From the NCBI RefSeq assembly GCF_030053115.1, contig NZ_CP125619.1, positions 1,241,001 through 1,305,000 on the forward strand: a DNA stretch of 64,000 bases, read 5' to 3'. Position 1 is the first letter of the stretch. The number at the start of each line of letters is the position of its first letter. The notes under the pieces are model-generated. The model ran no database searches and was not told the origin of the DNA. It saw nothing but the letters and a program-made list of their open reading frames with translations. Positions 49,752 through 51,152 of this stretch are shown in pieces. Made by a program: the position numbers and the translations under genes. This DNA is from Pseudomonas svalbardensis. Lineage in GTDB: Bacteria > Pseudomonadota > Gammaproteobacteria > Pseudomonadales > Pseudomonadaceae.

Positions 49752-49912
49752 GGCTTTGTCCTCTTCGGAACTGTTGTTTTTTCTCTGTCGGAACCGACCC
49801 AAATGTGGGAGCAACTGTCTTGATGACCTTTATTTTGAAAGCATATTGATAGACAGCTGAATTCCCACAGCTTTACGCCATGCGATGCCCTACAGGAACA
49901 CCGCGACCCGTT

Positions 49913-50842
49913 TTAGGCCAAGGGTTGTTTCCACTCAGTTCGGTCTCGGATCATGGCGTTCAGCCGTATCAACAACACACGCATACAGGCGATGAGCGCT
50001 ACTTTTGCGCATTTACCCTTATGACGCAGTGCGTCATACCGCGCTTTGAACTCAGGCTGTCGCTGAATCACCACCCAGCACGCCATGTACATTGCCCGAC
50101 GCGCAGCAAACCTGCCGCCGCTAATGTGGCGGGGGCCTTCATGCTTGCCACTGTCGTCGTTGTAGGGGGCTATGCCTGCCAGCGCTGCAATCTCGTGCCG
50201 TCCAACCTCGCCCAGTTCGGGTAAGTAGGCCATCAAGCTGGCTGCCGTCACGAGCCCTATACCCTTGACCGAGCACAAACGGGCCGTTTTATCACTGTCC
50301 AGGTCTTTAGCAGTTTGACGGATCAGCTTTTCTATCGACTTTATGGCTTGGCATAAATAGTCGATATGACTTCGCAGACAGGGTTTTACCGTGTCAGCAG
50401 AGGCTGTTTTAAGGCGCCGTATATCGTCGCCTTGCTGCTGAACAAAATTTTCGCGCTGCTGTACCAGCGCACGCAAATTGTCCTGTTCAGGGCTGGTGAT
50501 TCGGTTGCTTGGCGACTTTATGACTTCGGCAAACTGCGCGAGCAGCCGCGCATCTATCGGGTCGGTTTTAGCGCGCTGCCCCATGGCCTTGGCAAAATCC
50601 CTGGCTCGGCGAGGGTTGATCCGCAAGACTTCGAAGCCGGCAGCCTGAAGCGCTTTCATGACCTCTCGCTCATAGCCGCCGGTGGCTTCCAGCAATACGC
50701 GGCTGACCTGATAGCGCTTTAACCAGTCAATCAGCGCAAGGAAATCACTGGCGGTATTGAGGTGACTCGCGCCAACGTCTTGCGGGTTAATCCGAACTTC
50801 AAGGGTATCTTTGGAAACATCGATGCCTGCGCAGGAAAACAT
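49913..50842 (-). CDS. IS110-family transposase (DEDD plus serine recombinase)
   Basis: Predicted 309-residue full-length transposase. The RuvC-like DEDD residues are visible as D8 (CAGIDVSKDTLEV), E52 (VLLEATGGYE), D94 and D97 (KTDPIDARLLAQ). A coiled middle region (residues 115-180) follows, and the C-terminal Tnp domain carries Ser241 in GPRHISGGRFAARRAMYMAC, the position of the recombinase serine in IS621. The frame is intact with no stop or frameshift, so the element may be active. It acts with a structured RNA encoded upstream (50866-51026). Confidence 0.95.
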   Translation of the reverse strand: MFSCAGIDVSKDTLEVRINPQDVGASHLNTASDFLALIDWLKRYQVSRVLLEATGGYEREVMKALQAAGFEVLRINPRRARDFAKAMGQRAKTDPIDARLLAQFAEVIKSPSNRITSPEQDNLRALVQQRENFVQQQGDDIRRLKTASADTVKPCLRSHIDYLCQAIKSIEKLIRQTAKDLDSDKTARLCSVKGIGLVTAASLMAYLPELGEVGRHEIAALAGIAPYNDDSGKHEGPRHISGGRFAARRAMYMACWVVIQRQPEFKARYDALRHKGKCAKVALIACMRVLLIRLNAMIRDRTEWKQPLA

Positions 50843-50865
50843 AGCCGATCCCTCTTACACTCAAA

Positions 50866-51026
50866 GGTGAGAGCGCTCTGGCTGGGCACCACGCTTGTAA
50901 TGTTCGAGGTCGGCTCGTTCAACTGTTCGGGCTCAATAACCAGAGCGGAGAGGTGAATGGCAGCATGGGCTCCCACACGTGCTTTAAGCACTCCGGGCAT
51001 TCAGCTTGCCACTCACCGCTCTCACC
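50866..51026 (-). ncRNA. Putative IS110 bridge RNA
   Basis: Read on the minus strand, the 161 bases form a closed junction. The outer stem is GGTGAGAG (51026-51019) with CTCTCACC (50873-50866). Stem 1 is GTGAGTGGC (51016-51008) with GCCATTCAC (50961-50953), one G:U. Stem 2 is CGCTCTGG (50947-50940) with CCAGAGCG (50881-50874). Loop 1 (46 bases) contains GCCCG and TGTGGGAGC, matching the two halves of the occupied target. Loop 2 (58 bases) contains ACAGTTG and ACAAGC, matching the element's two ends. This is the target-loop and donor-loop organisation of bridge RNAs. It sits 24 bases upstream of the transposase start. Confidence 0.75.
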
Positions 51027-51053
51027 CTCAGTCTAATTCCTGCGCAAGACACA

Positions 51054-51152
51054 AGCGGGCTTGCTCGCGAAAGCGGTGTGTCAGCCAACACTCATGTTGA
51101 ATGTGATGGCCTCTTCGCGAGCAAGTCGAATCGTCGCACCGCCGCTCCCACA
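51054..51152. repeat. REPIN split by the IS110 element
   Basis: The left arm remnant AGCGGGCTTGCTCGCGAA (51054-51071) pairs with the right arm starting TTCGCGAGCAAG at 51114. The right arm carries an internal insertion (TCGAATCGTCGCACCG-like) before CGCTCCCACAT (to 51152). The missing outer part of the left arm, ATGTGGG, is found on the other side of the IS at 49803-49809. Confidence 0.8.

Follow-up and report, generated by a model that had tools for sequence, protein, structure and literature searches.

IS621 of Escherichia coli is described (PMC11208160, PMC11208158) as an element with a DEDD and serine recombinase and with a bridge RNA encoded upstream of the recombinase gene, in which a target loop precedes a donor loop; its core is CT and its target a REP sequence. 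According to these papers the IS621 RNA consists of a 5' stem-loop followed by two stem-loops, with a left target guide (LTG) of 9 nt that includes the core and a right target guide (RTG) of 4 nt, and longer right guides are reported for some relatives (PMC11208160). All reported copies of ISPpu10 and ISPpu9 from Pseudomonas putida lie in REPs and carry 2-bp direct repeats (PMC1525189, PMC8450116), and ISPpu10 appears among the bridge RNAs with predicted guides in a legend of PMC11208160. The seekRNAs (ISEc21, IS1111; PMC11187229) are likewise RNAs of a non-coding region that set target choice, encoded upstream of tnp in the IS110 type, with a reported length of 70-100 nt.

The window, i.e. 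the stretch of 64,000 nt of Pseudomonas svalbardensis DNA (contig NZ_CP125619.1) that was analysed, contains an element that appears to share the recombinase type, the upstream RNA gene, the loop order, the CT core and the REP target of IS621, its predicted RNA gene being 161 nt long as compared to the shorter seekRNAs. IS110 elements that target REPs, and guides that can be read, are already known (IS621, ISPpu9, ISPpu10), and the window element is a new, unusually well-documented member of this kind. With a probability of about 0.93 we consider it an IS110-group insertion sequence with a bridge RNA encoded in its upstream non-coding region. With circle formation, RNA binding and chemistry modelled by analogy on IS621, the recombinase with loop 1 would bind the REP site CAAGCCCG-CT-CCCACA, with loop 2 it would bind the joined ends of the excised circle, ACAGTTG-CT-TGTGTC, and strand exchange would take place at CT.

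The element, its recombinase and its copies

The element is located at 49812-51055 on the minus strand and measures 1244 bp counting one CT core; both of its ends are common to 13 copies and confirmed by an empty site in a relative. The CT copies are at 51055-51054 (left) and 49811-49810 (right). The right end, or left donor, ACAGTTG covers 49812-49818, the left half of the target, CAAGCCCG, lies at 51056-51063, and the right CT copy with the right half of the target, CTCCCACA, at 49804-49811, all on the minus strand. The original prediction had drawn the left end at 51051-51056, which is correct up to the CT core, but base 51056 belongs to the target flank. The non-coding stretch between left core and start codon is 213 nt and that downstream of tnp 101 nt, so the longer one is upstream, as in the IS110 group, and not downstream, as in the IS1111 group.

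The recombinase gene (49913-50842, minus strand) encodes a DEDD transposase of 309 amino acids, recognised by its domains and its protein matches. The domains DEDD_Tnp_IS110 (1.4e-21) and Transposase_20 (9e-16), i.e. PF01548 and PF02371, are both IS110 domains. The protein aligns over about residues 5-290 with ISCro4 (9t56, 3.7e-35) and IS621 (8wt6, 3.3e-33), and D8, E52, D94, D97 and S231 coincide with the motifs of these enzymes; the DEDD domain and a PF02371 domain with the catalytic serine that characterise the IS110 group are thus both present. Of 8000 candidates scored in a protein search, 7280 had E <= 0.001, and among the 120 matches listed the names were general where there were any (transposase, IS110 family transposase). 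In a plasmid search 2474 records matched, all at less than 60% identity. Within the genus, 65 of 398 genomes (counting that of the window) have a homologue at E <= 1e-20, and 10 of 368 other genomes of the class have one at 1e-45; a homologue scan of genome contigs gave 5 loci. Six relatives (L077-L082) have one TGA flagged inside the recombinase match, perhaps just an earlier stop than that of the query.

Several features were found beside more distant or neighbouring IS110 copies. In five distant relatives (L157, L160, L161, L162, L164) the right end runs into TTGTTA, and three of these (L157, L160, L162) have TAACGC at some distance upstream of their left end; the arrangement resembles integron attC sites. 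Rfam TwoAYGGAY matches, four of five above the gathering score, lie beside IS110 relatives in L135 (1638-1740 and 2101-2163), L139 (1638-1740) and L152 (418-484 and 2050-2114). In genome G018, C4 antisense RNA, a phage-type RNA, with its a1/b1 targets was matched at L131 161-322 beside an IS110 copy.

The genome of the window (6.36 Mb, one contig) harbours 13 full copies, counted among 40 candidates that were scored out of 237 from a first look. All 13 start with CT-TGTGTCTTG and end with ACAGTTG-CT. In every case CAAGCCCG precedes the left CT and CCCACA follows the right one, so that all share the same 16-bp site; most lie in a common REP context. The junctions are therefore those originally deduced, and the REP core that loop 1 had been proposed to specify is present at every full copy. 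For the orthologous intergenic region, loci of 19 other genomes were compared; both flanking genes could be placed in 18, and the element is absent from all 18. In two of them (L196, L192) the site GCAAGCCCGCTCCCACA is uninterrupted, which shows that one CT is gained on insertion; L196, from the relative G017, is closely similar on both sides and represents an empty site between the same two genes that border the window element.

The genome also contains remnants. Four solo left ends have an identical junction: L015 and L017 in the window's own genome (the same places as L184 and L178), and L171 and L174 in G083. They are composed of a REP half, CT and some 36 nt of element sequence up to a final GAGAG, followed by CGGGCTTGCTCGCGAA. 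This looks like the outcome of a deletion at a shared GAGCGG, or of carriage inside a pair of REPs. A mobile mini-element was considered and set aside, deletion at the shared GAGCGG being simpler. Further end remnants (L018, L019, L020, L014, L016) have other breakpoints.

The predicted bridge RNA

The predicted bridge-RNA gene, for which fold, stem covariation and guide-flank permutation all argue, spans 50866-51026 on the minus strand, where its two loops can be read directly. An outer stem formed by GGTGAGAGC (51018-51026) and GCTCTCACC (50866-50874), the latter read directly and seen in the fold, encloses the loops. The LTG GCCCG (50994-50998) and the RTG TGTGGGAG (50970-50977), which pairs with the CT core and six further bases, are in the first loop; the second contains the left donor guide ACAGTTG (50920-50926), identical to the right end read from 49818 to 49812, and the right donor guide ACAAG (50894-50898), which pairs with CTTGT of the left end. 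All are on the minus strand, where the original prediction had placed the four guides, and their order is that described for IS621: left target, right target plus core, right end, left end plus core. The right guides had been given as TGTGGGAGC and ACAAGC; as guides they stand, except that their final C's (50969 and 50893) occupy what the IS621 structure paper terms handshake positions and are not part of the guides. LTG, RTG and both donor guides thus match target and donor around a CT core, as in the IS110 group.

The ordered perfect matches of the guides to the four junction sequences add up to 25 nt. When other targets and donors were drawn from the window with CT kept, none of 5000 draws reached this total and the best gave 22, in agreement with the earlier judgement that coincidence is unlikely. 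The RNA from 50862 to 51026 folds at -76 kcal/mol (z = -5.7), a value equalled by none of 200 shuffles. No Rfam 15 family reaches its gathering score anywhere in the window.

Three stems had been proposed, and two of them covary. In 23 homologues pairing holds in 95% of cells, and both sides have changed in 15 of 35 pairs as compared to at most 3 with partners slid. Such changes are found in 8 of 11 pairs of the target-loop stem and 5 of 7 pairs of the donor-loop stem. Four of five covariation measures exceed all 500 shuffles; the fifth, on further pair types, does not stand out, being equalled or exceeded in 243 of 500 shuffles. The outer stem is conserved, with 88% pairing, but it covaries no more than shuffled sequence does (1 of 9 pairs; equalled or exceeded in 281 of 500 shuffles). 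Its two halves look like a single start sequence in opposite directions, TTAGACTGAGGGTGAGAGCG for sense and TTACACTCAAAGGTGAGAGCG for antisense, and such twin start sequences may be another reason for its conservation. An RNA model of the clade (R1) matches 15 of 21 loci outside its building set at E <= 0.0053, on the recombinase strand in all 14 loci checked for strand; in the window it also returned a weak opposite-strand match of 21.9 bits.

The layout differs from that of IS621 in that the LTG is 5 nt and the RTG 7-8 nt long. An IS621-type 5' stem-loop before the target loop was not seen in the window RNA, which instead has the predicted outer stem. CT follows the LTG directly in 0 of 72 clade loci, the next two bases being CG, GA, AA, AG or CA, and it follows the left donor guide directly in none of 24 clade sequences. 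In L087 and L088 the left donor guide is ACAGTTGACT and the right end ACAGTTGGCT, so that this donor guide may pair with the core. Four distant families (L143, L146, L149, L152), in which the left guide runs into CT and right flanks are shared only as CTAC (12 of 12 copies), are nearer to the published IS621 layout than the window clade is.

Upstream of the gene a putative -10-like TAGACT is located at 51030-51035 (minus strand). At the circle junction it would become part of TTGCTT-N17-TAGACT, with TTG and CTT on either side of the junction, a weak candidate promoter of sigma70-like form with 7 of 12 consensus bases. TTGCTT is in the same register in 20 of the 22 clade families listed and is missing from L087 and L088.

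Guides, flanks and site choice

Guides, junctions, copies, empty site and guide-target covariation can all be read from sequence, and relatives were used to follow guides and flanks together. Of 118 oriented loci, 34 were dropped because they lacked a junction motif, met a contig edge or an N, or were truncated. In the other 84, donor motifs located both junctions; these loci represent 35 different non-coding regions, each entered with its first flank. L065, counted among these 84 and the 72 below, is the window copy again. The scores of guides with their own flanks sum to 483 and the best permutation to 469, with 0 of 20,000 permutations as high, although relatedness remains in this comparison as related elements sit in related hosts. 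For the window clade only (29 regions) the sum is 402.5 and the best permutation 401.5. Tested against 16 distinct targets, the guides score strictly highest with their own in 17 of the 35 regions. In the rest some other target does as well or better, in most cases a nearly identical REP site, and in L062 6 of 15 other targets outscore the own one.

Guide and target have changed jointly in several lineages. The L088 family has guide ATTCG and target ATTCG in all five copies fetched from G018, L085 has guide GTTAGGAAG with CTTCCTA, L062, L087 and L130 have GTAGGAG with CTCCTAC, and L072 has GCCCC with GCCCC. The REP matches listed for G240 (about 100 of 306) and G384 (about 50 of 1011) read GCCCC except for four and two, respectively. 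The G384 element has a GCCCC guide, and the G240 element (L075, L102, L103) has a GCCCG guide at GCCCC, a mismatch beside the core in all three copies fetched. Other misfits are L073, which has the GCCCC guide of the L072/G384 type and a flank ending in AGCCC, one C shorter; L126, with a GCCCG guide at GGCCG; and L080, in which the left donor guide is ACAGTTA and the right end ACAGTTG.

Within the window's genome the intact site GCAAGCCCGCTCCCACA occurs 76 times (reversed control 0), and the one-base variant GCAAGCTCGCTCCCACA, with GCTCG, is about as common (62 sites). All 13 full copies are at GCCCG sites and none at GCTCG (Fisher p = 0.0008; p = 0.0015 without L009, the site of which starts with ACAAG). 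With left-end remnants counted in, the numbers are 17 and 1, the exception being remnant L018 (the same place as L189) at GCTCG. Two full copies, L008 and L009, are in a different repeat context with the same CAAGCCCG-CT-CCCACA core. That context has 19 sites within one mismatch. Four of these have CCCGCT, and two of the four hold a full copy, as against none of the 15 variants (p = 0.035).

As far as sequences can tell, copies, empty site and guides that follow flanks support the original proposal that the element is programmed for REP sites. Against the main reading stand the GCTCG remnant, the misfits in G240, L073, L126, L080 and L062, the outer stem without covariation and the weak circle promoter.

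The antisense strand and sX15

On the plus strand, antisense to the predicted bridge-RNA gene, Rfam family sX15 (RF02234), which is named a Xanthomonadaceae sRNA, matches with its full model at 50866-51031 (37 bits, E = 3.4e-4, permissive settings), below the gathering score of 55. In a scan of 19 chosen related loci, such full-length matches were found in all 10 loci of the window clade (41.7-61.7 bits) and in none of the 9 others; L105, L062, L109 and L085 are above 55 bits (56-61.7). All ten are antisense to the recombinase, and sX15 starts 22-24 nt from its start codon. A scan of 340 genomes of the class with stricter filters yielded a single match of 120 bits (L210 in G483); it did not pick up the genome of the window itself and gave no match in 14 control genomes. 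L210 lies immediately upstream of a fragment of an IS110 recombinase (40% identity, residues 5-134) and is antisense to it; this region has no plasmid match. Our search of the literature on sX15, including with Xanthomonas, found no paper linking it to IS110. An antisense -10-like TACACT is present in 16 of 22 clade families; an antisense promoter is not claimed, as the best -35/-10 score averages 6.95 and that of shuffled sequence 6.75.

The sX15 match suggests that both strands may be transcribed, and the antisense RNA rather than the sense RNA could then be the guide in this clade. Besides the ten antisense matches, ISPpu9 offers a parallel in Asr9, described as a long-lived antisense RNA, about 180 nt in length, that overlaps the 5'-UTR region of tnp and raises transposition 3-4 fold when overproduced (PMC8450116). 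The fold alone is indecisive on strand, with 49 G.U and 47 A.C cells in the union of both predicted structures and a lower sense fold in 18 of 23. The guides themselves are more telling. The LTG was read by a fixed pattern in 72 window-clade loci (L107 was missed; L090, with N near the flank, is included), and 31 deviations from the target fit wobble by the sense strand, 0 fit wobble by the antisense strand and 7 are plain mismatches, the 31 stemming from about five lineages only; this points to the sense strand as the guide. Moreover, GCTCG sites, which an antisense guide could tolerate through G.T pairing, hold 0 of 13 full copies, and the IS621 guide is reported as the sense strand (PMC11208160). 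We consider an antisense guide unlikely.

Still less probable is that the structure is a mere 5'-UTR restraining recombinase translation with an incidental REP match. The tnp 5'-UTR of ISPpu9 reportedly folds so that it covers the ribosome-binding site (PMC8450116), and the two roles could coexist, but this explanation does not account for guide-target covariation and the match to both element ends. Recognition of the REP palindrome by the protein itself, with no RNA guide, would fit the common REP context of most copies but is the most improbable reading, given L008 and L009 in their different context with its occupied CCCGCT sites and the guide-target covariation.

We therefore regard the sense RNA as the probable guide, with a possible regulatory role for its antisense counterpart. 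We infer that sX15-type RNAs are antisense transcripts of the bridge-RNA genes of this clade. In a more tentative extension, which we think rather less likely than its converse, these genes would be transcribed both ways from twin starts, and the antisense RNA (sX15, perhaps akin to Asr9) would be an anti-bridge RNA able to pair with the guide RNA over its full length and would set how often transposition occurs. The odds are lowered because the ISPpu9 direct repeat is reported as AG, as compared to the CT core of the window element in recombinase orientation, so that ISPpu9 may be outside the window clade, its membership being unproven.

With 13 copies, an empty site and avoided sites that are one base off, the genome provides a natural test of bridge-RNA targeting without experiment, and the layout with short left and long right guides is offered for comparison with IS621. 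Through the sX15 match an orphan Rfam sRNA family gains a possible origin, and whether bridge RNAs are controlled by antisense RNA becomes a concrete question; the link to sX15 is the part worth following.
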